NCBI GenBank assembly: GCA_030018315.1
Contig: JASEGA010000007.1
Span: forward strand, 1-64,000
From: a bacterium
Lineage (GTDB): Bacteria > Hydrothermota > UBA3073 > JACQXS01 > JAGMCI01
Length of the DNA stretch: 64,000 nucleotides
Direction: 5' to 3'
Numbering within the stretch: position 1 is the first letter of the stretch; each line of letters starts with the position of its first letter. The position numbers and the translations under genes were made by a program. The notes under the pieces are model-generated. The model did not search any database. It saw nothing but the letters and a program-made list of their open reading frames with translations, and was not told where the DNA came from. Shown here piece by piece: positions 14,558 through 37,416 of the stretch.

Positions 14558-15790
14558 TTATTTCTTCTCTACCGGGATAATATGGGGAGTAACAAAGACA
14601 AGAAGCTCTGATTTTGACTGTGTTTTACTTTTTGATTTAAACAATCTACCAATAAGTGGTATACTTGAGATAATAGGGACACCCCTTATTACTTCACCTG
14701 TCTTTTCTCTAACTATACCACCAATCACAACAGTCTGGCCATCGTTTACCATTAGACTTGTATTTGCTTCACTTGAAAGGATAATAACACCACCAGCTAC
14801 TGTGGCTTCAGATGAAAGATCTGATACCTCTGGATGTAAATCCAATACAACTTGGTTTTCCGGATTTATATGAGGTTTAACTGTAAGTTTCAGTGCTACA
14901 TCATAAAATTGTATAATCTGATTACCTGCTCTATCGAGCGTAATTATAGGAATTTTTTTACCCGATAAAATCATCGCCTCCTCATTATCTATAACTGCAA
15001 CTTTTGGTTGTGAAAGTATACGCGCCTTATCCTTAGATTCAAGCATTAATAGTTTAGCTTCAAGATTAACACCAGATAATAGGGTGCCAAAAATAATATC
15101 GCTTACACCAGTTATAGGAGCAGTTACTCCACCCTCTACATGAGTTTCAACTGTTGGCTCTGTAAACTTTGCACGCCACTCAATTCCGAGTTCCCGTGCT
15201 GCCTTATAGTCAACTTCAACTATTTTTGCTTCAATCATAACTTGAGGAGTAGGTGTATCAATTTTATCCACAAATCTTTCTATATTGCTTACAGTAGTTG
15301 GGATGTCACAAATAATTAACGAATTTGTACGCTCATCTACTTTGCTCTTTCCACGCTCTGTCAGCATAGGAGAGATAGCATTTTCTATACTGCTCGCCTT
15401 TGCATACTTTATTCTTAAAATCTTCGTCTCAAGTGGTATAATACGCTTCTGCTCCTCACTCTCCTCCATTGTTATAACCCCTATTATCCCCTTTTGCTCA
15501 ACTGCCGTAAGACCATGAACCTGTAAAACTGTCTGAAATGCCTGTTCCCATGGAACATCTTCTAGTCTAAGGGTAACCCTACCGCTCACCTTTTCAGAAG
15601 CTACAATGTTTACTTTGCCGAGCTCTGCAAAAGTGCGTAAAACTGTCCTTACATCTGCATTTTCAAATGATAACGAAATAAGACGCTCCCTCTCCTGCTG
15701 TGCAAGTGATAAAGTAGAAACAATAAGACCAAGCATGAGAATGCATATTATAATAGATTTAAAAGAAAGTGCTCCTCCATATCTTTTCAT
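14558..15790 (-). CDS. pilQ: Type IV pilus secretin PilQ (short, without AMIN domain)
   Basis: PilQ forms the outer-membrane pore for the pilus. After a signal peptide the 410-residue protein has an STN-like domain (about 36-90, LISLSFENADVRTVLRTFAELGKVNIV), an N1/NHN-like domain (120-195) and a secretin domain. The secretin domain ends with the diagnostic GVPIISSIPLIGRLF and SELLVFVTPHIIP. The AMIN domains that normally precede STN are not here; one sits in the gene just upstream. It is the last gene of the minus-strand pilus operon, 8 nt after the AMIN-pilP gene. Confidence 0.93.
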   Translation of the reverse strand: MKRYGGALSFKSIIICILMLGLIVSTLSLAQQERERLISLSFENADVRTVLRTFAELGKVNIVASEKVSGRVTLRLEDVPWEQAFQTVLQVHGLTAVEQKGIIGVITMEESEEQKRIIPLETKILRIKYAKASSIENAISPMLTERGKSKVDERTNSLIICDIPTTVSNIERFVDKIDTPTPQVMIEAKIVEVDYKAARELGIEWRAKFTEPTVETHVEGGVTAPITGVSDIIFGTLLSGVNLEAKLLMLESKDKARILSQPKVAVIDNEEAMILSGKKIPIITLDRAGNQIIQFYDVALKLTVKPHINPENQVVLDLHPEVSDLSSEATVAGGVIILSSEANTSLMVNDGQTVVIGGIVREKTGEVIRGVPIISSIPLIGRLFKSKSKTQSKSELLVFVTPHIIPVEKK

Positions 15791-15798
15791 TACCCCTC

Positions 15799-16542
15799 CT
15801 ATTTCTTTTCTTCTATTGGCAGTAATTTAAGTGTAATCCTCTTTATACCACCAAAACTGCGTATAGCAAAAGTTACTTTGTTCTTATTTATAAGTTCAAC
15901 CTTACCGTCACTCACTGGGTCGCCTTCACGGAGTATGTATCCCTTACCTGTTTGGTCCTGTGCCAACGCATACTTGTCTTTTGGACTCCACATTATACCT
16001 ACAATTGTTGCCTTGCTAACATCAAGGAGGGTCTCGGCAACAGCAGGGATGCCAAGCCATGGCTTAAATGGGTCCCTTTTACCTCGTGAATGGTAGAAAA
16101 AGGGCTCAGGAAGTATAGCTATCTTTTTCTTCTCAGCAACGCTTATACCTAAATTAACTATTACACCTTCATCAGTCCGAGATATTGAATATTTAGATTC
16201 TTTATCAAGGTCAATTACCACTCTTGTAACAGGGATAAGTACTCGTCTAAATTGACTCGACCTGATAGACAGAATAGGCGAGATATTTACCTTTATTTTA
16301 GGTGATAAATAAGAAATAGCATTCTCAAAGTCTATTACTATCCTTTCAGGATTATGGAGGATAAAATCTATATACTTAAAGACATTGGTAAATATAAAAA
16401 CCTTCAACTCACCGTTAGTGGTGACCTGAATCTTCTTTACCTCACCACTGTAAAGTAATGAGCTAACAAACAATAACAAAATTGTAACAATCCTAAATAC
16501 CTGCCTCGCTGAGTCAAGGCGGGCATGTTTTTTATTTTTCAT
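15799..16542 (-). CDS. AMIN domain - PilP-like fusion protein
   Basis: The 247-residue protein has a signal peptide (about 15-32) and an AMIN domain (about 34-130: VKKIQVTTNGELKVFIFTN, NPERIVIDFENA, TRVVIDLDK). A PilP-like C-terminal domain follows (about 148-247: RDPFKPWL, ATIVGIMW, GKGYILREGDPVSDGKVELI, IKRITLKL). In most systems AMIN belongs to PilQ, where it binds peptidoglycan, and PilP is a lipoprotein linking PilNO to PilQ. Here both functions are joined, with no lipobox. Residues 7-14 (ARLDSARQ) are encoded by a 24-nt palindromic element also found in the pilM-pilN gene. Gaps to pilO and pilQ are 9 and 8 nt. Confidence 0.82.
   Translation of the reverse strand: MKNKKHARLDSARQVFRIVTILLLFVSSLLYSGEVKKIQVTTNGELKVFIFTNVFKYIDFILHNPERIVIDFENAISYLSPKIKVNISPILSIRSSQFRRVLIPVTRVVIDLDKESKYSISRTDEGVIVNLGISVAEKKKIAILPEPFFYHSRGKRDPFKPWLGIPAVAETLLDVSKATIVGIMWSPKDKYALAQDQTGKGYILREGDPVSDGKVELINKNKVTFAIRSFGGIKRITLKLLPIEEKK
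16500..16523 (+). repeat. 24-nt palindromic element (copy 1) inside the AMIN-pilP gene
   Basis: CCTGCCTCG and CAAGGCGGG form an imperfect hairpin (8 of 9 pairs counting T.G) around CTGAGT. It matches the element at 22177-22200 at 23 of 24 positions in the opposite orientation. It is read in frame in the signal-peptide n-region. Confidence 0.8.
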
Positions 16543-16551
16543 CTTGATGTC

Positions 16552-17091
16552 TCACCTTCCTTTTTTTGTTACACTGTATGCTGTGGCGATAAACTCTGCT
16601 TCTAATGTTTTATCTGGTTTACCGGAAGACATAAGTCTAATTTTATCCACATTTACAAGCCTTTGTAAACCAGCTACCCTTGATAAAAAATTACCAAGCT
16701 CATGATACCCTGCGCTCACTTTTATTTGAATTGGGTTCTCGTTGTAAAACTCACGTGGGACTGGAGTTAATGGTTTAAATAGGATGAAACTAACATTGCT
16801 TAGTCTACCGGCTTCAGCCATACCACGAAGTAATCCAGGCATCTCTTTTTCTTCAGGTAAATACTCTTCAAATATCTCCCATTGAGAAGATAATGAATCA
16901 AAAGCCACTTTCACACTCTTATACCTCTCTATTAAATTCTTTGATCTCTCAAGTGCTTTAGACACTTGCGCATACTTTTGGTTAAGCTCACGTATTTGTG
17001 CAGCTCTTGGTCTAAATAAAACAGTGAAAAATGCAAAAAATATTACAACCACTAAAACACACGCAAATAAAATGCGACGCGGTCTCGTCAT
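16552..17091 (-). CDS. pilO: Type IV pilus inner-membrane protein PilO
   Basis: The 179-residue protein has one transmembrane helix (9-27), a coiled coil (about 33-65) and a PilO-type ferredoxin-like periplasmic domain (MPGLLRGMAEAGRLSNVSF, PIQIKVSAGYHELGNFLSRVAG). PilO pairs with PilN to form the alignment subcomplex across the inner membrane. The pilN part is fused to pilM further upstream. Three unrelated surface-protein genes separate the two. Confidence 0.9.
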   Translation of the reverse strand: MTRPRRILFACVLVVVIFFAFFTVLFRPRAAQIRELNQKYAQVSKALERSKNLIERYKSVKVAFDSLSSQWEIFEEYLPEEKEMPGLLRGMAEAGRLSNVSFILFKPLTPVPREFYNENPIQIKVSAGYHELGNFLSRVAGLQRLVNVDKIRLMSSGKPDKTLEAEFIATAYSVTKKGR

Positions 17092-17095
17092 TTAC

Positions 17096-17584
17096 CTACT
17101 CCCCTGCAAACCACATAAGTGCTATAGGCCATAATCTGAATTCTTTACCTCTTGCAAGAGTTATACCGCCTCCATAGTCGTAGTATTTTCCACCTTTATA
17201 CACACAAAGTACCCTAACATCAGCATAATAAACATACTCATAACTACTACCACATTGTGTATGTCCTAAATACACAGGTATACTAAATAGACCTGTTGAA
17301 TCAGTGTACCCTATAATATCTGGCCCCCTATAAGGAATAGCAGATGCGATGTCAGGTTCAACAAAGACTTGTACACTCTCAACTGGGTTATAAAAATCCC
17401 ATTTTGTGTATTCCCATACTGAATCTACAAACACAGAGTCTGTTGGTACTGCATATTCGTATATATAGGCAGATACAACTGCATTATCTGTATCCAGTGG
17501 CTTCTGTTCGCATCCAGTAATAAGTAGTAAACTTAGAAGTAAGAGTACCCCTATACAATAAGGAATTAAGTATTTAATATTCAT
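17096..17584 (-). CDS. Small predicted lipoprotein in the pilus operon
   Basis: I start the gene at the ATG at 17584, which has a strong SD (GGAGG, 7 nt upstream) and gives a clean lipoprotein signal ending LLITGC. A longer frame from 17611 would begin inside a palindrome. The 162-residue product has a beta-rich body (VQVFVEPDIASAIPYRGP, YTDSTGLFSIPVYLG, YYADVRVLCVYKGGKYY) that looks like a small Ig/carboxypeptidase-regulatory-type fold. I do not recognise a family. It ends 4 nt before pilO, so it is likely part of the pilus transcript. Confidence 0.7.
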   Translation of the reverse strand: MNIKYLIPYCIGVLLLLSLLLITGCEQKPLDTDNAVVSAYIYEYAVPTDSVFVDSVWEYTKWDFYNPVESVQVFVEPDIASAIPYRGPDIIGYTDSTGLFSIPVYLGHTQCGSSYEYVYYADVRVLCVYKGGKYYDYGGGITLARGKEFRLWPIALMWFAGE

Positions 17585-17600
17585 ATTTCCTCCATTGTAG

Positions 17601-17620
17601 GGACACGCCATGGCGTGTCC
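17601..17620. repeat. Perfect 20-bp palindrome between two lipoprotein genes
   Basis: GGACACGCCA followed by its exact complement TGGCGTGTCC. It is intergenic and has no T run on either side. Confidence 0.7.
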
Positions 17621-17626
17621 ATGTAA

Positions 17627-19570
17627 TTAATAAATCTCACCATAGACTGCCGCGCTGGCATTGCCATTATCACTTGTTACATCAACTAATATTTTTGACC
17701 TCCTTAAGTTTACTGTATCAGGCTCATCATCCCAAAGCGAGAAACTAAATTGAGTCCAAGCCGGGGACTGGGTATCAGGAATCTTAACATCTATGTCACC
17801 CCTCAGCTCACCCGCTGTAGCACTTACTTGTATAGCTGTGCCTCCAGTTAGTGGATTACCATTTATATCTCGCAATGTATATATGAAACTTGCATTCCCA
17901 GCATTTGGGATGTTGAAGCTATCTGGCAAAAGTTTAAGCATAGTATCATGTGACCAAAGAACTCTTACAGAATCCTTAATAGTACTACCATTCCCATCTA
18001 TTGTCCAGCCATAAACATAAAATAGACCAGTTAATGGCCAAGGTGCACATGAGATAAGGGTATTGGATGTGATGCCATTTGAGGTAACACCTGAACCTGG
18101 CTGAATTATACCACACTGTGTAGTAAACCAGACTATGGTATTGTCCGGTACAGGGTTACCGTATTGGTCACCAACATAGGCTGTAATTATATCTTCAACT
18201 CCAGCATACCATAGTGCATAAAGATTGCGTTTCTCAGTTGCAAGCGAAAAATGTTCCTGAACTGGTGGACCACCAAGTATGACTATCCTGACCGGACTTG
18301 ATGAGATACTTGTCCCTTGTACACTAGCTACGATTCTAACTGGACCAGAAATTGTGCCACTGTTAAGATGAGTAGTAACTAAAGCCAGGCTCTCAGTAGA
18401 TGCAGAAGTAGGCCAAAGATATTCACCACCACCCGGACCACCTACAATTGCGAAATCAACTGTCTTTATGCCACTAACTGGGTTGCCTTCACGGTCCCTA
18501 ACCTGAAAAATAATAGTGGAAGTCTCATTAGAGCCAGTCCCATGTACATAGATTGATGTGTAATCAATCCAATAGACAACAACACTGGCTGGTACTGTAT
18601 CACCTACTACTGTAAAGGTAAGAAGAACACTATCCTTCACAATAGGACTATACCAAGCTTTAACTATAGCTACACCCGGTACGGCACTACTCGTTAAGAC
18701 TGCAAATGCATTACCAACAGAATCGGTACTATCCACTGGTGTTATTGTGCCCAAATTAGTTGAAAAATTAATTACAAAACCGGGTGCCGGATTATTATTC
18801 GTATACCTAAGATTTGCAGTTATAATTGAAGTACTGATTCCATCTGCTGGAATACTTGAAGGCTCTGCTGTCATAGAGTATATATATAAATCGGTATCAC
18901 TCACTGTAAACTCCACTTGAATACTATCCCTTACTGTTTGACTATACCAAGCCTTAACAAAGGCTGTACCTGGGGTAGTTCCACTTGTCAAGATTGCAAA
19001 GGCGTTACCAGTAGAATCAGTAGTGTCTATCTGTGTTATCGTACCTAAATCAGTTGAAAAATTGATTACAAAGCCGGGTGCCGGATTATTATTAGCCTGG
19101 TATTTGACATTTGCAGTTATAGTTGATGTGTAACTACCGCCTGCTGGAATACTTGGAGGGTCAGCTGTTAAGGAATATATGTATACCTCACCAGTTATAG
19201 AAGTAAATTGAACATAAATTGACTTAAGTTTGTTACCACAAGAGGCATCTACTCTTGCCATACCAGCAATCGTACCACTGGTAAGAGTAGCAGTAGCTAC
19301 TCCATTAGAGTCAGTTGTATCAGGAGTAGTTATTTTCCCTAAACTTGTAATAAACTTAACTTCTAACCCATCAGCTGGTCTACCATCCGAATATTTAACT
19401 GTTGCAGTTATTATTGAACTACTTGCCCCATCTGCAGGTATGCTATCAGGCTCTGCTACAAGAGACAAAATATTTATGACAGGAGCTGGCGCCACTGTTG
19501 GTGGCTTCTTCTCGCACCCTACAAAAGTTATAATAAGAGCACAAAGACTAAAAAACCATTTCCGTAACAT
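17627..19570 (-). CDS. Lipoprotein with tandem invasin/Big_1-like Ig domains
   Basis: The 647-residue protein starts with a lipoprotein signal (ITFVGC, cysteine near 19). It then has three close repeats of about 97 residues (roughly 33-125, 130-225, 229-320), each with the bacterial Ig-like (Big_1/invasin) pattern: AEPDSIPADG, SSIITATVKY, G.ITTPDTTDSNGVA.A.LTSGT..G. Two or three more divergent Ig-like domains follow. Such proteins usually extend adhesive or structural domains from the outer surface. It lies within the pilus operon, between a T9SS protein and a small lipoprotein, and could cooperate with the pilus; that link is inferred only from position. Confidence 0.82.
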   Translation of the reverse strand: MLRKWFFSLCALIITFVGCEKKPPTVAPAPVINILSLVAEPDSIPADGASSSIITATVKYSDGRPADGLEVKFITSLGKITTPDTTDSNGVATATLTSGTIAGMARVDASCGNKLKSIYVQFTSITGEVYIYSLTADPPSIPAGGSYTSTITANVKYQANNNPAPGFVINFSTDLGTITQIDTTDSTGNAFAILTSGTTPGTAFVKAWYSQTVRDSIQVEFTVSDTDLYIYSMTAEPSSIPADGISTSIITANLRYTNNNPAPGFVINFSTNLGTITPVDSTDSVGNAFAVLTSSAVPGVAIVKAWYSPIVKDSVLLTFTVVGDTVPASVVVYWIDYTSIYVHGTGSNETSTIIFQVRDREGNPVSGIKTVDFAIVGGPGGGEYLWPTSASTESLALVTTHLNSGTISGPVRIVASVQGTSISSSPVRIVILGGPPVQEHFSLATEKRNLYALWYAGVEDIITAYVGDQYGNPVPDNTIVWFTTQCGIIQPGSGVTSNGITSNTLISCAPWPLTGLFYVYGWTIDGNGSTIKDSVRVLWSHDTMLKLLPDSFNIPNAGNASFIYTLRDINGNPLTGGTAIQVSATAGELRGDIDVKIPDTQSPAWTQFSFSLWDDEPDTVNLRRSKILVDVTSDNGNASAAVYGEIY

Positions 19571-19602
19571 AATACCCCCTATTCTTATGCATAAATTTTA
19601 CA

Positions 19603-20379
19603 TCATCTTATCATAATCAATTTCTTTGTCACTGTGTAATAGCCTGCTTCAAACTTTGCAAAATAAATGCCAGCCGGATAGTCTTTAGCGTTCCATTTTA
19701 CTGTATAATACCCTAGCTCTTTTTCTCCATTGACCAGTGTCTCCACTAACCTACCACTTGCATCGTAAATCTTCAAATTTACTATTCCCTTTTTAGGTAG
19801 GGCAAATCTAATTTTAGCTTCTGAACCAAATGGATTGGGATAGCTCTGATAAAGAGTAAACGATACTGGGAACTCAATAGAATTTTTCCCTTCCGAAAGT
19901 CTCTGGGTGGTAGAAAAGATAATAGGTAATCCTACGTTGCCACTGTATACAGCTATGCTATCTTTTCTCATATCAATAGTATCTGCAAGCGTGACTGTGC
20001 CAAAAGTAGGCAAATCTTCTGGACTCCAAAAAAGTGAGTCAATAACACTATGAACTATCACCAGTTCCCAAAGAATAAATGTATCTATGGAAGATCTAAC
20101 ATCTATATCCATACTATAAGGTAGGTTAACGGTATCCTCTATAGAATAAAAGTAAGCATCAAATTCACCAGGTGGCGCAGGAGGATGAATTACATCCAAA
20201 CCTTGGTCATAGAGGTCAGTTCCATTTGGATCAGTTGCAAAAGTAAGAATGTATGAGATACTATCTCCTTTTATAGTCACAGACACCGCCCAAGTAAATG
20301 GGAATACAGCGCTCGGCGCTAACAGACAAGACATCAAAACTGAGCAAACTCCAAACCCAATTCTAAATAAAACTTTCAT
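19603..20379 (-). CDS. Small T9SS-sorted secreted protein
   Basis: The 258-residue protein has a signal peptide (about 1-30) and a beta-rich body (FATDPNGTDLYDQGLDV, FDAYFYSIEDTVNLPYSMD). It ends with a T9SS type A sorting domain (YQSYPNPFGSEAKIRFALP, LKIYDASGRLVETLVNGE, AGIYFAKFE, TKKLIMI). Unlike the large cargo proteins in this window, its sorting domain carries no heptamer insertions. It stands between the pilM-pilN gene and the Ig-domain lipoprotein. Confidence 0.85.
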   Translation of the reverse strand: MKVLFRIGFGVCSVLMSCLLAPSAVFPFTWAVSVTIKGDSISYILTFATDPNGTDLYDQGLDVIHPPAPPGEFDAYFYSIEDTVNLPYSMDIDVRSSIDTFILWELVIVHSVIDSLFWSPEDLPTFGTVTLADTIDMRKDSIAVYSGNVGLPIIFSTTQRLSEGKNSIEFPVSFTLYQSYPNPFGSEAKIRFALPKKGIVNLKIYDASGRLVETLVNGEKELGYYTVKWNAKDYPAGIYFAKFEAGYYTVTKKLIMIR

Positions 20380-20564: not shown

Positions 20565-22226
20565 TTATTCTTTAAATCTTGCCTTTATCTCAAACTCTAT
20601 TGTCTCAATACCTGAAATTTCGCCCCTCTGTGTATAAGATAGGTTGACATCGCTAAAATTGGGCACTTGTTCAAGTCTTTGCATGAATTCAGATACTGCA
20701 AAGTTTGAAGTTGTAATTCCACGAATTAAAATGTTAATCCCAAAAGTATCTACAGACTCCTCATTTAAAGCTACAAGCCAAGTGTATCGTGGTAGTAAAC
20801 GGTTTAACTCGTCTAATAATTTAATTCTCGCATACCTGTGTTTACTTAAGTCTTGTACAACTTTTATCTTGGTTGATAACTCATTTTCTTTACTTATTAA
20901 ACTACGCACTAAATCTGCTTTATCTGTCATTGATGCCTGCTGTAGCTCCATATCCTTAATTTCGCCTTCAATCCTATTCTGTTTTTTTACTATACCAAAT
21001 CCTATAAGACTGAGAATTACTAAAGCAACAATAGAGCTGTAAAATGGGAGTCCTGTATCAATTGCCTCTATAATTTTATTCCTTTCTTTTATTCTTTCCT
21101 CAAATGGTAAAAGGTTAACTCCAAGGGTCTCAAGTTTTGATATAGCTAAGCCAATGGCAATATCAAAAGTATGAGGAGATTTAGGTGGTTCAGTGGCACA
21201 TTCTATCAACTTTAATGGATTGCCAATCTCGCAGTGAGTATTAAACTTTTCAGCAAAAGCTTCCTTTATTCCGGGAATGTCAGCCCCGCCTCCCCCTAAG
21301 ATAACTCCGCTCCGCTCTGGAATCTCGGGTAGTATCCGTTCCGCCCTACTTAATAACCTTTTTAAAGTGCTACTTATTGCCTTAGAGACATCCTTTGGTT
21401 TTACATCTTTAATTTCCTCACCATGGAGGACACGTGCTGCTTCAGCATAACTAATTCCACATACTCTCTGAATTTCCTCAGTAAAAGAACGAACACCAAT
21501 AGGAATATCATCGTCAAAGAAATAGCCCCTATTCTTAACGATTGTCATCAATGTATGTTCAAACCCAATATTGACCAAAAGGAAGGCACCCTCATCTTTT
21601 ATATAGTCATTCACTTGATAAACGGACTGAAGTGCAAATGGAGCTATATCAATATTATATGGTAAAAGTTCAGTATCTTTTATAACATCTATTAGGGGAT
21701 AAAGGACCTCATTTTTTGCACCTGTAAGTACAAATTCGAGGCGTTCTTTCTCTTCCTTTAATTTCTTATAATCAGTAACAACTTCTTTAAGGTCAAAGGG
21801 AATATTTTCTTTGATAAGCTTTTGAACTAAAGTTGGAACTTCTCTACGTTTAGTGAATTTGGTCTCAAGTCTTTTAAGAATAACATCCTTGCCGGATACG
21901 ATGAGTGAGATTTTTGTCTCTTTAAGGTCGCTACTCTTAACTAAGTTTCTTATGTTTTCAATAAGGGTTTCGCGGTCCATAAACTCACGGTCTACAATTA
22001 CACCAAATGGTAATTCTACTACTCCATATTTTTCAAGTAAATAACCCTTTTGAGTTTTCTTCACTTGAGCAAGTTTTATATAACGTGTCCCAATATCTAA
22101 TCCAACGCATACCCGCCTGGGAGTTAAAGGCCTCTTCAAGAATCCGAATGCTGACCTAAACTTGGATGTAAACACTCCCGCCTTGACTCGGCGAGGCAGG
22201 CCTAATTTAGGTAATTCCAATCTCAT
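20565..22226 (-). CDS. PilM-PilN fusion protein
   Basis: The first 350 residues are PilM, an actin-like ATPase of the pilus platform (VCVGLDIGTRYIKLAQVKK, LVNIGFEHTLMTIV, GVILGGGGADIPGIKEAF). From about 367 the chain reads LGVNLLPFEERIKER, the PilN N-terminal peptide that normally binds PilM in trans. A transmembrane helix (about 387-407), a coiled coil and a PilN periplasmic domain follow to residue 553. Separate PilM and PilN have about 350 and 190 residues, so this is a full-length fusion. The unusual N-terminal extension (1-38) includes PRRVKAGV, encoded by a 24-nt palindromic element. It overlaps the previous gene by 4 nt. Confidence 0.9.
   Translation of the reverse strand: MRLELPKLGLPRRVKAGVFTSKFRSAFGFLKRPLTPRRVCVGLDIGTRYIKLAQVKKTQKGYLLEKYGVVELPFGVIVDREFMDRETLIENIRNLVKSSDLKETKISLIVSGKDVILKRLETKFTKRREVPTLVQKLIKENIPFDLKEVVTDYKKLKEEKERLEFVLTGAKNEVLYPLIDVIKDTELLPYNIDIAPFALQSVYQVNDYIKDEGAFLLVNIGFEHTLMTIVKNRGYFFDDDIPIGVRSFTEEIQRVCGISYAEAARVLHGEEIKDVKPKDVSKAISSTLKRLLSRAERILPEIPERSGVILGGGGADIPGIKEAFAEKFNTHCEIGNPLKLIECATEPPKSPHTFDIAIGLAISKLETLGVNLLPFEERIKERNKIIEAIDTGLPFYSSIVALVILSLIGFGIVKKQNRIEGEIKDMELQQASMTDKADLVRSLISKENELSTKIKVVQDLSKHRYARIKLLDELNRLLPRYTWLVALNEESVDTFGINILIRGITTSNFAVSEFMQRLEQVPNFSDVNLSYTQRGEISGIETIEFEIKARFKE
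22177..22200 (-). repeat. 24-nt palindromic element (copy 2) inside the pilM-pilN gene
   Basis: Plus-strand sequence begins CCCGCCTTGACTCGG and ends CGAGGCAGG. It is 23/24 identical to copy 1 at 16500-16523, but in inverted orientation and read in a different frame (PRRVKAGV instead of ARLDSARQ). Confidence 0.8.
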
Positions 22227-23437
22227 TCTGTATATGGTTTTAAAACTAATCTCCGTTGTAATATTTTTTCAACTACCTCTTTTGTGATTGGTTCTTTTTC
22301 ATATCTTGAAAATGCTATAACCTCTTTTAAGACTCCCTCAAGCTCTCTCACATTAGTAGTTACCCTTTCAGCTATTAGAGACAGTATCTCGTTAGGTACT
22401 TTTGCACCTTTAGCTTTAAATTTTAGTATAGCAACACGAGTCTCGAGGTCTGGTGCCTCTATCTCTGCTATTAAGCCACCCTCAAACCTTGACCTAAGAC
22501 GCTGTGAAAGTGTTGAAAGCTCCTTTGGGGGGCGATCGGAAGTCACAACTATTTGCTTAGAGTTTTGAAAAAGTTCATTAAATATATGAAAGAACTGTTG
22601 CTGCGCAACCTCATCACCAGCAATAAGTCCAATATCGTCTATTAGCAGTATATCAATTGCTTTATATTGGTCTTTAAATTCATCCATCCTCTTTGACTCA
22701 ATTGCAGCTCTGAGTTCTTCTACAAATCTATCAGATGAGTAAAATAGAACCTTTCTTGATTGCTGTCTTTCAATCATATAATTCCATATAGAAACTAAAA
22801 GATGGGTCTTACCCAATCCTATATCTGAATATATAAAAAATGGATTGCTGTCATCTGAATAAGTTCTTGCAACTGATAAAGCTACAGAATAAGCAAAGTC
22901 ATTGCACTTACCTGTTACAAAGTTTTCAAAAGTGTATTTCTTAAGAAGCGAAGGAATTGGAGGAGCCATCTTTGATATCAGAGTAGCTTTGTGCATCTCT
23001 TCTTCTGGTAAACTTGGTCCATAATACTTTGTAAGGGCGCTCTCAATGTCGCTCTTCTTTGCTACAAAAGGAAAAACATCAAGATAAACTGATTTGCGTA
23101 AATTTGACATAGCTTCCCTATCCAATGGATTCGTCATCACTACAGCTAATGAAGTGTCTGATTGTCTCACTGGTATAATAAAAAAACGCTTCGCAATCCA
23201 AGATGGGACAAGCTTCATTGCCTCAGGGCTCATCTTTAACTCGTTCAAATCAAGTATATGATAGTGAAACTTACGTGAAAGTAACGTAATTAAACTCTCC
23301 TCAGTAAAATAACCGAGTCTTACTAAATTCTCTTCCGTATCACCACCCTCTTTCCACTGACGACTTATAGCCTCATCAAGTTGTTCACGTGTTATAATTC
23401 CAAGTTCAAGTAATGTGCCTATAAAAGACTCTGCCAT
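22223..23437 (-). CDS. MshEN domain - DnaA-type AAA+ ATPase fusion in pilus operon
   Basis: Residues 1-140 match the MshEN/T2SSE N-terminal domain of pilus ATPases (FIGTLLELGIITREQLDEAI, then the FFIIPVRQSDTSLAVVMTNPLD segment). Residues 166-400 match domain III of DnaA: YTFENFVTGKCNDFAY, Walker A SDIGLGKTH (about 204-212), Walker B ILLIDDIGLI (about 262-271), sensor 1 TSDRPPKEL, box VII RLRSRFEGG (about 315), sensor 2 VRELEG (about 361). The DnaA DNA-binding domain IV is absent and the first glycine of the P-loop is serine. It is not chromosomal DnaA and has no PilB motor domain. It overlaps pilM-pilN by 4 nt and lies 1 nt after the TPR gene. Its function is unknown; a nucleotide-dependent regulator or assembly factor of the pilus is plausible. 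Confidence 0.85.
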   Translation of the reverse strand: MAESFIGTLLELGIITREQLDEAISRQWKEGGDTEENLVRLGYFTEESLITLLSRKFHYHILDLNELKMSPEAMKLVPSWIAKRFFIIPVRQSDTSLAVVMTNPLDREAMSNLRKSVYLDVFPFVAKKSDIESALTKYYGPSLPEEEMHKATLISKMAPPIPSLLKKYTFENFVTGKCNDFAYSVALSVARTYSDDSNPFFIYSDIGLGKTHLLVSIWNYMIERQQSRKVLFYSSDRFVEELRAAIESKRMDEFKDQYKAIDILLIDDIGLIAGDEVAQQQFFHIFNELFQNSKQIVVTSDRPPKELSTLSQRLRSRFEGGLIAEIEAPDLETRVAILKFKAKGAKVPNEILSLIAERVTTNVRELEGVLKEVIAFSRYEKEPITKEVVEKILQRRLVLKPYTE

Positions 23438-23438
23438 C

Positions 23439-24494
23439 TCACATCTGCCTTAATTTACTTAACCTATCCTTAACATCTTTGTATGAAATGTTATAAAGAT
23501 AGACTTCCTCAAATGCATGTAGCGCATTATCATGGTCTCCAAGTGACTCGTAAGCCCTTCCAAGTCCATACTGAAGCTCAATGTAATTCTTTGAAGTCTT
23601 ACCCCCTTCTTCAATTGCCTGCTTAAATGCATTTACAGCAAGCTTGGCTTCACCTTTTTCCAAAAAGCAATAACCAAGCTCACATAAAGCCTTTTGCCGA
23701 AAGGAGTCAATAGTTGAGGCAAGTTGAAGCTCCCTTACAGATGCATCGTAAAAACCGAGCGCCCTGTATTCAATTCCTAATTTATAATGGTCTATTTGCT
23801 CAAGTTTTGAAAAATCGCTTGCTTTAATTTCATTTATTGCATGTAATAAAAACTGTACTTCTTTCTCATCTATCACTTGACGTGAGGGTTCAGCAATTGG
23901 AGTCTCACGCTCTGGCTTAATTTTAGTTTCCCTTATAAGTTCTGGCTTTTTAACTACCACTTTTGGCTCTGCAGGAAGAAGACCAAAAATTTTATCTAAC
24001 TCCTCTTCTCTTTGGTTTATTTCTGTATAAAGGCTTTTAAGCTTTGACTTAAGAGACTCATCATCTGCAAGCAAAGCGATAAGTTTTTTATATTTTTCTG
24101 GTTTCTTTTTAACTTCCTTTCTGTGTTTTGATAGCTTCGCATAACTTGTAAGTGAATCTATAGATTCGGTTAGTAAACCAACTTCTGCATAAAGCCTTGC
24201 TAAATCAAAGTAAACTTCAGTTGTGTTAAGACCAAGCCTTAATATCTTCTTACAAACTGCTATCCCATTTTCGTACAATCCGTCATTCTCGTAAAGCTCA
24301 ACTGCACGAAGATACTCAGAGATAGCACTATTTGAGTCTTCCATCTTTACATACACATCCCCAATAAGGTTATAGATATTTGGGTCATCACCTTTGGCAT
24401 CGAGTATCTCCCTATATAGAGAGATTGCCTTCTCCCATTCACACCTTGAAATATAAGCACGTGCCTCACGTTCGACTTGAATTCTATCAAGCAT
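23439..24494 (-). CDS. TPR-repeat protein heading the pilus operon
   Basis: The 351-residue protein has tetratricopeptide repeats in its first 110 residues (WEKAISLYREILDAKGDDPNIY, AISEYLRAVELYENDG) and again after 215 (YRALGFYDASVRELQLASTID, LAVNAFKQAIEEG, DNALHAFEEVYLYN). A charged proline-containing linker separates them (about 150-215). There is no signal peptide, so it is probably a cytoplasmic scaffold. It is the first gene of the operon, directly before the MshEN-DnaA gene, and may bind it or the PilM platform. That is inference from gene order. Confidence 0.8.
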   Translation of the reverse strand: MLDRIQVEREARAYISRCEWEKAISLYREILDAKGDDPNIYNLIGDVYVKMEDSNSAISEYLRAVELYENDGLYENGIAVCKKILRLGLNTTEVYFDLARLYAEVGLLTESIDSLTSYAKLSKHRKEVKKKPEKYKKLIALLADDESLKSKLKSLYTEINQREEELDKIFGLLPAEPKVVVKKPELIRETKIKPERETPIAEPSRQVIDEKEVQFLLHAINEIKASDFSKLEQIDHYKLGIEYRALGFYDASVRELQLASTIDSFRQKALCELGYCFLEKGEAKLAVNAFKQAIEEGGKTSKNYIELQYGLGRAYESLGDHDNALHAFEEVYLYNISYKDVKDRLSKLRQM

Positions 24495-34629: not shown

Positions 34630-37416
34630 ATGAAGAGATATAGAAAGCACTCCCAAAAGCTTGCTATTGTTCCCAGAATCCTGTGGATAGGCATTGGTAA
34701 TAAGCTAAAGGGCGATGATGGTGTCGGTCCCACATTCATAGGGCTACTGCGTAAATGTAAATCCCGCCCCTTTACAAAGGAGCGGGATAAATCTCGGCTC
34801 AAAAATATGGTATTATTTGACTGTGGTGAAGTACCTGAAAACTATTTATATCCGATAGTAAAAGCAAATCCAGATATAATTATAGTTGTGGACGCTGTCA
34901 ACTTTGGAGTTGAGCCCGGCACTATTAAGGTATTTAGTACTGATGAAATAGACTCTTATGGATTATCAACTCATACTCTTTCATTAGATTACTTTGTAAA
35001 GTGGATTAGGGATGAAAGTAGAGCTAAAATCTTTACACTCGGGATACAGGTCAAGTCGTGTAGGTTTGGAGAAAGACTTAGTAAACCAGTTGCAGAGGCT
35101 GTAAAGTTGATGGCAAAAGAAAAAATAGGTGCCGAAATAATACTTGAAGGAGTAGTGCAAGGGATTGGATTTAGGCCATTCTTACACAGGGTTGCAAAAA
35201 AGTTCTCACTAACGGGCTGGGTAAAAAATTTCTCAGGTGGAGTAAAAGTATGGGTTGAAGGTAATAAGATAGACATCCTGCTTTTCTACGACCACTTATT
35301 ACAAGAAGCGCCGCCACTTGCTACTATCAAAAACAGAACACTCGAGTTTAAGCCTGCTAAAGGAGTTAAAGGATTTAAAATAGAGCCAAGTGAGATGGTA
35401 AGTGGTAAATCCCGCACCTTTACAAAGGAGCGGGATAAATTTGTGCTTATCCCTCCAGATATATCTATTTGTGATGATTGTTTGCGAGAGCTTCAAACTC
35501 TAAAAGACCGTAGATATAGATACCCTTTCATAAACTGTACCAATTGCGGTCCTAGGTTTACAATTATACACGATATCCCATACGATAGATGTAAGACAAC
35601 GATGGCTGAGTTTGTAATGTGTAAGGACTGCGCAAACGAATACAAAGATATTGAGAACCGCAGGTATCATGCACAGCCAAATGCCTGTCCTAAATGTGGA
35701 CCTCAAGTAGAGTTAATTCAGAATCGGGGACAGTCCCCATTCGGGGACAGTCCCTATCCTACATGTGGAGATAAAGCAATAAAATTAGCTGTTAAGTTGC
35801 TAAAACATGGCAAAATTATAGCAGTCAAAGGGATAGGTGGTTTCCATCTATGTTGCGATGCAACAAATAAAGAAGCAGTGACGAGGCTGAGAAAAGCAAA
35901 AGCAAGAGAATTTAAGCCATTTGCAGTTATGTCAGCAGAAGTAGGACTTGTAAAAAAATACGCCTATGTGTCAAAGGATGAGGAGCGATTATTAAAGTCG
36001 GTTCAAAGGCCAATTGTGTTATTAAAGAAAAAAAAGAATAATCTTATCGCTCCATCAGTAGCACCTGAAAATGAATATATTGGAGCTATGCTTCCGTACA
36101 CTCCTTTACACTATTTAATAACTGAAGACTTATTGGCTATAGTAGATACAAGTGGTAACTTTAAAGATGAGCCACTGTTAATAGATAACTGTGAAGCAAT
36201 TACGAAACTATCGGGTATTGCAGATTACTTACTCGTTCATAACAGGAATATTTATTCAAGATGTGATGACTCGGTTGCTAAAGTTATAAATAACACACCT
36301 GTCATTTTCCGTAGGGCAAGAGGCTGGACTCCTTTACCGATAAAGCTGCCAACTAACGGACATTGTATTCTTGCAACTGGTGCAGAATTAAAGAATACTT
36401 TCTGTGTAACGAGAGATAATCTTGCTTTTGTATCACAACATATAGGCGATTTGAATAATCTTGAGACATATAAGTTTTATAAATCTACAATTGAGCACTT
36501 CAAGAAACTGTTCGGAATAGAGCCAAAAATCGTTGTACACGACTTGCACCCAGAATATTTATCTACTAAATATGCGTATAGTATACAGGATACAGAACAC
36601 AGGATACAGGTTCAACATCATTATGCTCATATTGCAAGTTGTATGGTAGAGAATGAAGTAGAGCCGCCAGTGATTGGGATAGCATTTGATGGTGTAGGCT
36701 ATGGAGTTGATGGTAAAGCGTGGGGGGGTGAGTTCTTAATTTGTGATTATAAAAAGTTTGATAGAATTGGGCACTTAAAATATATTCCGCTACCAGGAGG
36801 TGATAAGGCGGCGATTGAGCCGTGGAGGATGGCTGTTAGCTATCTCTGGAATGTATTTGGGGAGGATTGCGAAAGATTTATCAAAAGATGGAAAAACAGT
36901 AGGTTTATACTTCAAATGATTAAACAAGGTGTAAATTGTCCGTTGAGTTCAAGTATGGGTAGACTTTTTGATGCCATTTCAAGTTTACTTGGACTATGTG
37001 ATTTCAATACATACGAAGGTGAAGGTGCGATAAGACTTGAACAAGTGTGTAATCTAGAAGACTGCTGTCAAGTTCATCCATATAAATATGAAATAAAGGA
37101 TGGTGTTGTGGATGTATCACAAATGATGCGTGAGATAGTAAATACGAAATCCAACATATCTGAGATAGCTACACGCTTCCACTATACTATTGTTGATATA
37201 ACAAAAAGTTTTTGCTTGCAAATCCGTAAGAAATATAGTATAAACAAAGTAGCATTATCTGGAGGTGTATTCCAGAACAAGATTTTGACCGAGCTTGTAG
37301 TAAACATGCTTGAGACTGAAAATTTCATTGTCTACACGCATTTAAATGTACCTCCAAATGATGGGGGTATATCTTTAGGACAGGCAGCAGTAGCACAGGC
37401 GATAGCAAATGGGTAA
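34630..37416 (+). CDS. Hydrogenase maturation protease (HycI-type) fused to carbamoyltransferase HypF
   Basis: Residues 16-165 are a HycI/HyaD-type endopeptidase (ILWIGIGNKLKGDDGVGP; DAVNFGVEPGTIK with the metal aspartate; THTLSLDYFV). Residues 172-928 are HypF, which makes the cyanide ligands of [NiFe]-hydrogenase. Its parts in order are: acylphosphatase domain (VVQGIGFRPFLHRV), zinc fingers (CDDC, CTNCGPRFTI, CKDC, CPKCGP), YrdC-like domain (KGIGGFHLCCDATN, KPFAVMS), and Kae1-like domain (VQHHYAHIASC, GIAFDGVGYG, SGGVFQNKIL). Three palindromic elements (codons 43-54, 260-270, 365-375) and a heptamer repeat (about codon 652) add residues in frame between domains. No other hyp or hydrogenase genes are in the window. 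Confidence 0.92.
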   Translation: MKRYRKHSQKLAIVPRILWIGIGNKLKGDDGVGPTFIGLLRKCKSRPFTKERDKSRLKNMVLFDCGEVPENYLYPIVKANPDIIIVVDAVNFGVEPGTIKVFSTDEIDSYGLSTHTLSLDYFVKWIRDESRAKIFTLGIQVKSCRFGERLSKPVAEAVKLMAKEKIGAEIILEGVVQGIGFRPFLHRVAKKFSLTGWVKNFSGGVKVWVEGNKIDILLFYDHLLQEAPPLATIKNRTLEFKPAKGVKGFKIEPSEMVSGKSRTFTKERDKFVLIPPDISICDDCLRELQTLKDRRYRYPFINCTNCGPRFTIIHDIPYDRCKTTMAEFVMCKDCANEYKDIENRRYHAQPNACPKCGPQVELIQNRGQSPFGDSPYPTCGDKAIKLAVKLLKHGKIIAVKGIGGFHLCCDATNKEAVTRLRKAKAREFKPFAVMSAEVGLVKKYAYVSKDEERLLKSVQRPIVLLKKKKNNLIAPSVAPENEYIGAMLPYTPLHYLITEDLLAIVDTSGNFKDEPLLIDNCEAITKLSGIADYLLVHNRNIYSRCDDSVAKVINNTPVIFRRARGWTPLPIKLPTNGHCILATGAELKNTFCVTRDNLAFVSQHIGDLNNLETYKFYKSTIEHFKKLFGIEPKIVVHDLHPEYLSTKYAYSIQDTEHRIQVQHHYAHIASCMVENEVEPPVIGIAFDGVGYGVDGKAWGGEFLICDYKKFDRIGHLKYIPLPGGDKAAIEPWRMAVSYLWNVFGEDCERFIKRWKNSRFILQMIKQGVNCPLSSSMGRLFDAISSLLGLCDFNTYEGEGAIRLEQVCNLEDCCQVHPYKYEIKDGVVDVSQMMREIVNTKSNISEIATRFHYTIVDITKSFCLQIRKKYSINKVALSGGVFQNKILTELVVNMLETENFIVYTHLNVPPNDGGISLGQAAVAQAIANG
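34759..34792 (+). repeat. 34-nt in-frame palindromic element, copy 1 in hycI-hypF
   Basis: ATCCCGCCCCTTT, AC, AAAGGAGCGGGAT: 13-bp arms with one mismatch. It encodes KSRPFTKERDK inside the HycI domain and is identical to copy 2 at 33 of 34 positions. Confidence 0.9.
35407..35440 (+). repeat. 34-nt in-frame palindromic element, copy 2 in hycI-hypF
   Basis: ATCCCGCACCTTT, AC, AAAGGAGCGGGAT, read in the same frame as copy 1 to give KSRTFTKERDK. It lies in the linker between the acylphosphatase domain and the first HypF zinc finger. Confidence 0.9.
35724..35754 (+). repeat. Tandem GGGGACAGTCCC elements in hycI-hypF
   Basis: TCGGGGACAGTCCC occurs twice (35724-35737 and 35741-35754). Each copy is itself a palindrome around GGGACAGTCCC. 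Read in frame they add RGQSPFGDSP between the zinc fingers and the YrdC-like domain. Confidence 0.85.
36585..36612 (+). repeat. Heptamer repeat in hycI-hypF (4 units)
   Basis: ACAGGAT, ACAGAAC, ACAGGAT, ACAGGTT: four consecutive 7-nt units. They encode IQDTEHRIQ just before the conserved VQHHYAHIAS. Confidence 0.75.

Follow-up and report, generated by a model that had tools for sequence, protein, structure and literature searches.

What does an ATPase that joins the N-terminal domain of pilus motors to the AAA+ core of DnaA do in a pilus operon? The question is raised by a gene in the window, by which we mean the whole 64,000-nt stretch of DNA analyzed. The original prediction had placed this gene correctly at 22223–23437, and its strand was established here as minus; the minus-strand reading frame was open, and the plus-strand reading of the same interval contained many stops. 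The gene and the pilus genes around it are as follows.

22223..23437, minus strand: MshEN-DnaA ATPase gene, 404 aa (start 23437, stop 22223)
23439..24494, minus strand: TPR protein gene, 351 aa, 1 nt upstream of the MshEN-DnaA gene
20565..22226, minus strand: fused PilM-PilN gene, 553 aa, with a 4-nt overlap with the MshEN-DnaA gene
16552..17091, minus strand: PilO (Pfam)
15799..16542, minus strand: AMIN-domain protein (Pfam)
14558..15790, minus strand: PilQ secretin (Pfam, NCBIfam)

The spacing to both neighbors was as originally predicted, and pilM-pilN proved to be a single fused gene, with PilM_2 at residues 42–362 and PilN at residues 470–550 in Pfam. Gene spacing and neighbors supported the further proposal that the ATPase gene belongs to the pilus transcript. 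The top NCBIfam match of the TPR protein was SgmX, far under the cut-off of that model; we know of no link between SgmX and a DnaA-type ATPase. Between PilM-PilN and PilO, in most loci of the phylum to which the window belongs (candidate division WOR-3/Stahlbacteria/Hydrothermota, from contig names; hereafter WOR-3), there is a conserved gene with a lipoprotein-like signal. Its 171-aa product in the window (17096–17611) gave no match in Pfam, and it is perhaps a stand-in for PilP. The pilus operon of the window also includes an Invasin/Big_1-repeat protein and a T9SS-tail protein (17627–20379). Elsewhere in the window, a hydrogenase maturation protease (HycI) and HypF are joined in one open frame (34630–37416).

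In the window protein, Pfam assigned residues 60–142 to MshEN (E 2.6e-16) and residues 166–324 to Bac_DnaA (E 4.9e-57). The NCBIfam models TIGR02538 (PilB) and TIGR00362 (DnaA) spanned residues 8–146 and 160–397, respectively, and in a sequence search of the PDB, residues 5–150 matched PilF/PilB/MshE and residues 143–391 matched DnaA. The AlphaFold model had a mean pLDDT of 83 and consisted of two well-ordered domains connected by a low-confidence linker at residues 142–161. Foldseek matched the N-terminal part with the MshE-c-di-GMP structure 5htl (TM 0.79 by target) and the C-terminal part with domain III of Bacillus subtilis DnaA, 8bv3 (TM 0.90 by target, 47% identity). The modules were delimited as follows.

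23267..23428, minus strand: MshEN N-terminal subdomain, residues 4–57, with both degenerate c-di-GMP motifs at residues 4–27 and 33–56 (NCBIfam, model)
23012..23260, minus strand: MshEN C-terminal subdomain, residues 60–142 (Pfam MshEN, model)
22247..22960, minus strand: DnaA domain III-type AAA+ module, residues 160–397 (Pfam, NCBIfam, PDB search, Foldseek)

DnaA domain I was absent, with MshEN in its place, and the protein stopped after the lid of domain III, so that domain IV, which binds the DnaA box, was also absent by sequence, Pfam, and NCBIfam. Pfam gave no match to a T2SSE motor domain in the window protein; separate PilB/PilT-type genes were present in the same genome. The predicted architecture, an MshEN domain followed by DnaA domain III without domain IV, was borne out by Pfam, NCBIfam, and Foldseek, and the domain searches assigned the N-terminus to nothing other than an MshEN/PilB-type domain. 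The residues of the ATP site and a neighboring motif were located in the AAA+ module.

22805..22828, minus strand: Walker A, SDIGLGKT, residues 204–211
22634..22648, minus strand: Walker B, LLIDD, residues 264–268
22604..22618, minus strand: GDEVA, residues 274–278, replacing the GKERT-type motif of DnaA
22487..22504, minus strand: box VII with arginine finger R317, residues 312–317
22334..22357, minus strand: sensor 2, TNVRELEG with R364, residues 361–368

Together with sensor 1 (residues 297–301) and the box VII arginines (R313/R317), all of the ATPase motifs named in the original prediction were present. The Walker A lysine and the Walker B aspartates were found in every aligned homologue. 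The arginine finger and sensor 2 were retained in the class of the window (families f1–f5); both were gone in most members of family f10, and the finger was gone in f21, which argues against a common cycle driven by hydrolysis. Because the finger and sensor 2 have been lost in places and Walker A and B never, ATP binding seems more generally important than hydrolysis. When the fusions were aligned with the DnaA proteins of WOR-3, the ATP-site residues were retained. An arginine at position 259 that is invariant in WOR-3 DnaA was replaced in the fusions, including the window protein, and the GKERT-type lysine at position 275 was replaced in the order of the window; family f5 still has RERT. In DnaA, both of these basic positions lie around the initiator-specific region, and the GKERT-type motif contacts single-stranded DNA, a contact that a literature search did not confirm. 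This residue pattern fits an ATP-binding switch that would no longer handle DNA. A role in DNA handling, either in uptake through the pilus, as had originally been raised, or in the control of replication by surface contact, would be in keeping with DnaA as the nearest relative of the AAA+ core. We consider it improbable, since domain IV is absent, the two conserved basic residues are replaced, and the genome has its own DnaA.

To place the AAA+ module relative to DnaA, an unrooted tree of 78 AAA+ domains was used, from which long rows (fast-evolving tandem domains) had been left out and which contained 49 bona fide DnaA sequences of WOR-3, Saccharibacteria, Nitrospirota, Campylobacterota, Thermodesulfobacteriota, and Myxococcota. 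A single branch with support of 99/92 parted all MshEN-linked AAA+ domains from the bona fide DnaA sequences, and the WOR-3 fusions made up one side of a branch with support of 98/98. A first tree, which still contained the tandem domains, did not recover the fusions as a clean group (2 changes, 18% of bootstraps). The clean split was obtained after dropping the tandem rows and adding fusions of other phyla, and it therefore depends partly on the omission of long branches. A recent origin by copying of the DnaA gene of the same genome was rejected by both trees. Judged by sequence, the MshEN-linked AAA+ module is an old, non-replicative DnaA paralogue. Since its relatives in several phyla branch apart from DnaA, an engine of the replication type seems to have been recruited early to the pilus machine. 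The tree of the fusions and that of PilM-PilN had 14 of 19 splits in common, which is in line with joint inheritance of the two genes.

Besides fragments, full-length MshEN-DnaA matches were present in another 24 genomes, from this phylum or from other phyla, so that the architecture is not due to chance. The gene lay immediately upstream of the fused pilM-pilN in all annotated WOR-3 loci (22/22, window included) and directly downstream of a TPR gene in 20 of the 22, the adjacent TPR gene being absent in genomes G006 and G003. After PilM-PilN the order was mostly the small conserved gene, PilO, the AMIN protein, and PilQ, as far as the contig extends, and two more loci (G087, G089) had the same arrangement by eye. 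The question of whether such genes always lie beside pilM/pilN, which the original prediction had posed, was thus answered positively for the annotated loci of the phylum; other contexts occurred in other phyla. An artefactual fusion of two genes that are usually separate was rejected, as the architecture recurs in many genomes. When a pattern from a closer set of N-terminal sequences was used for scanning, the full fusions it detected were confined to WOR-3/Hydrothermota records and one probably misfiled contig. A contig filed as Candidatus Hydromicrobium americanum (L087) has a WOR-3-type pilus operon with a fusion of 65% identity, and it is probably misbinned. In family f5, a stand-alone MshEN gene is found between two TPR genes, just before the MshEN-DnaA gene (L040:5642-6076, L041:8042-8533, and L042:4243-4746). 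Other WOR-3 genomes encode proteins of 616–885 aa with two DnaA-type AAA+ domains (L049:8625-10553, L050:8145-10046, L051:9568-11418, and L052:3102-5759) near PilT-like, MglA-like, DUF4388, or CheB/CheR/CheD-like genes; these tandem-domain proteins are perhaps a second DnaA-type family linked to pili or signaling.

In the class of the window, the fusion occurred together with T2SSE-type motors in 11 genomes and alone in none; two genomes (G010, G012) had motors without the fusion, and three (G001, G009, G015) had neither, PilM also being missing from G001 and G009. The chance of this split was approximately 0.02 (hypergeometric by hand, kinship ignored), and the fusion was absent in 3/3 motor-less genomes, which are few and related. 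The pilus operons of WOR-3 families f6, f11, f12, f15, f20, and f26 were without the MshEN-DnaA gene. Its absence from several families and from the pilus-bearing G010 and G012 indicated that the gene is not an essential pilus part. The same gaps are what would be expected of a hitch-hiking gene that was fixed beside pilM by chance and is unrelated to pilus function. That origin is highly improbable, as the adjacency is conserved across the phylum, the protein has a pilus-motor docking domain, the gene is co-absent with the pilus, and independent pilus contexts are found in two other phyla.

Outside the phylum, all members came from profile searches, by which three more phyla were found to have MshEN-DnaA proteins. 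The gene of G317 and that of G170 each stand immediately before pilB-, pilT-, pilS-, pilR-, and pilC-like genes. A pilD-like gene precedes several MshEN-DnaA proteins in both G294 and G390, and in G294 a PilB gene comes after them. One pilus cluster of G294 (L180:4309-15923) encodes four MshEN proteins in a row, one of which, 1993 aa long, is composed of MshEN, a DnaA-type domain, long helical repeats, and a second DnaA-type domain. Two large proteins of 2132 and 1786 aa (L202:7958-14356, L203:7725-13085) have a DnaA-type domain at the C-terminus and an N-terminus of Cys/His-rich look. In G262, genes for an MglA-like GTPase, a roadblock protein, and two DUF4388 proteins adjoin the gene, and no pilus genes were found around it in the stretch read. 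The G262 neighbors, the TPR gene beside most WOR-3 fusions, and the MglA-like, PilT, and Che-type genes adjoining the tandem DnaA-domain proteins of the phylum would suit a polarity or spatial factor. Such a factor would be an ATP-dependent oligomer scaffold that, with the TPR protein, positions pilus machines or switches them on, in a manner like that of MglA-SgmX, and does not itself act on the motors. We regard this as possible, if on the unlikely side; direct work at the motor site is favored by the immediate linkage with PilM-PilN and, in other phyla, with pilB.

A DnaA-type oligomer gated by c-di-GMP had been the proposal of the original prediction. MshEN binds c-di-GMP via two 24-residue motifs (PMC5013675), and the first Arg of the motif is replaceable by Lys or Leu (PMC11731258). 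The criterion applied was therefore two (R/K/L)LGxx...Q motifs with a 5-residue spacer. The window protein had the MshEN fold (Pfam, Foldseek) and lacked the two motifs: in motif I, R was changed to S and G to I, and in motif II, R was changed to D, L to T, G to E, and Q to K. The LG step of both motifs and the second-motif Gln were altered in the window protein and in all aligned WOR-3 homologues, and the Glu for Gly in the second motif was invariant (16/16 aligned WOR-3 homologues). In XpsE, comparable changes go with loss of c-di-GMP binding (PMC5013675). A search for GGDEF proteins gave no match in five gene-bearing relatives (G002, G005, G007, G013, and G052) and one match in the window's genome, and the window protein scored exactly at the cut-off (38.0) of the NCBIfam c-di-GMP motif model. 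The single GGDEF match and this borderline score are in favor of gating, as are the relatives in other phyla, in which both motifs were almost intact (G294/G390) or nearly so (G317). The degenerate motifs and the GGDEF search of the five relatives argue against it, so that gating of the window protein was left unsupported, c-di-GMP gating was rejected for the WOR-3 clade, and the proposal as a whole is quite improbable. From the motifs retained in other phyla, the c-di-GMP idea may hold elsewhere, and binding may be ancestral.

The pilus association of the MshEN-DnaA ATPase is well supported. For its function, we tentatively favor a cytoplasmic accessory ATPase that docks on PilM by its MshEN domain and, with the TPR protein, regulates or loads PilB/PilT, a reading to which we give somewhat less than an even chance. 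Attachment to the platform via PilM is plausible, and docking and motor loading are inferred. According to PMC11656802, PilB docks in a PilM socket, its N1D-PilM contact being deduced from T2SS complexes, and there is competition for the stator between the extension and retraction motors; on this basis, MshEN is proposed to carry the DnaA-type ATPase to PilM. Within PilM-PilN, the MshEN domain would dock the ATPase on PilM, just as PilB/GspE docks on PilM/GspL by its N-terminal domain, and ATP binding by the DnaA-type module would switch its oligomeric state there. ATPases of the DnaA/DnaC family load the DnaB ring, and by analogy the switched oligomer may regulate or load the hexameric PilB/PilT at the socket. 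Recruitment would probably fall to the TPR protein, acting like SgmX, which stimulates pilus formation in Myxococcus xanthus (PMC7519303). This accessory-ATPase reading is favored by a domain, MshEN, that the pilus motors themselves have at the N-terminus, by the adjacency to PilM-PilN, by the joint absence of gene and motors in the class, and by the pilus contexts in two other phyla. The MglA/roadblock context of G262, the gene-less G010, G012, and WOR-3 families, and the missing adjacent TPR gene in G006 and G003 count against it. A bolder version, in which an ancient DnaA-family lineage acts as a PilB/PilT loader or exchange factor at the PilM socket, as a pilus equivalent of the DnaA/DnaC loading of the DnaB helicase, c-di-GMP control having persisted in some phyla and disappeared from WOR-3, is doubtful. 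To our knowledge, DnaA is a replication initiator, and few of its described relatives do other work; the branch considered here occurs in the pilus clusters of three phyla or more, with the docking domain of the motors and a retained ATP site. Such a branch would mean one more ATPase in a machine regarded as driven by PilB- and PilT-type motors. It could account for motor exchange at the socket, and the DnaA AAA+ module would have been reused for a membrane machine.

As the original prediction had held, no description of a DnaA-type ATPase in a pilus system was found in the open-access literature, and we rate the system as a combination, undescribed in the literature searched, of modules that are known with a machine that is also known. 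The TPR neighbor weakly resembles SgmX, a TPR protein that activates type IV pili in M. xanthus (PMC7519303), but it is much shorter. Other MshEN proteins also place this module on new output domains, DnaA not being among the outputs named in the available portion of PMC5013675; unlike those proteins, the window protein has lost the c-di-GMP motif. Hda, the regulatory paralogue of DnaA, likewise has a DnaA-type AAA+ module without domain IV, whereas the window protein has an added MshEN and scored 93.5 bits against the Hda equivalog cut-off of 194.8. With the motor ATPases PilB, PilF, and MshE the window protein shares the N-terminal MshEN/N1D domain and the pilus gene clusters, and it differs from them in that a DnaA-type AAA+ module replaces the T2SSE motor domain. 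It differs from DnaA in its MshEN domain, the lack of domains I and IV, the lost basic residues, the separate branch, and a score of 305.4 bits against the DnaA equivalog TIGR00362, under the cut-off of 343.9. With domain III of B. subtilis DnaA (PDB 8bv3/8btg) it shares the AAA+ fold, Walker A and B, sensor 1, the box VII arginines, and sensor 2, at 47–48% identity in the structural match.
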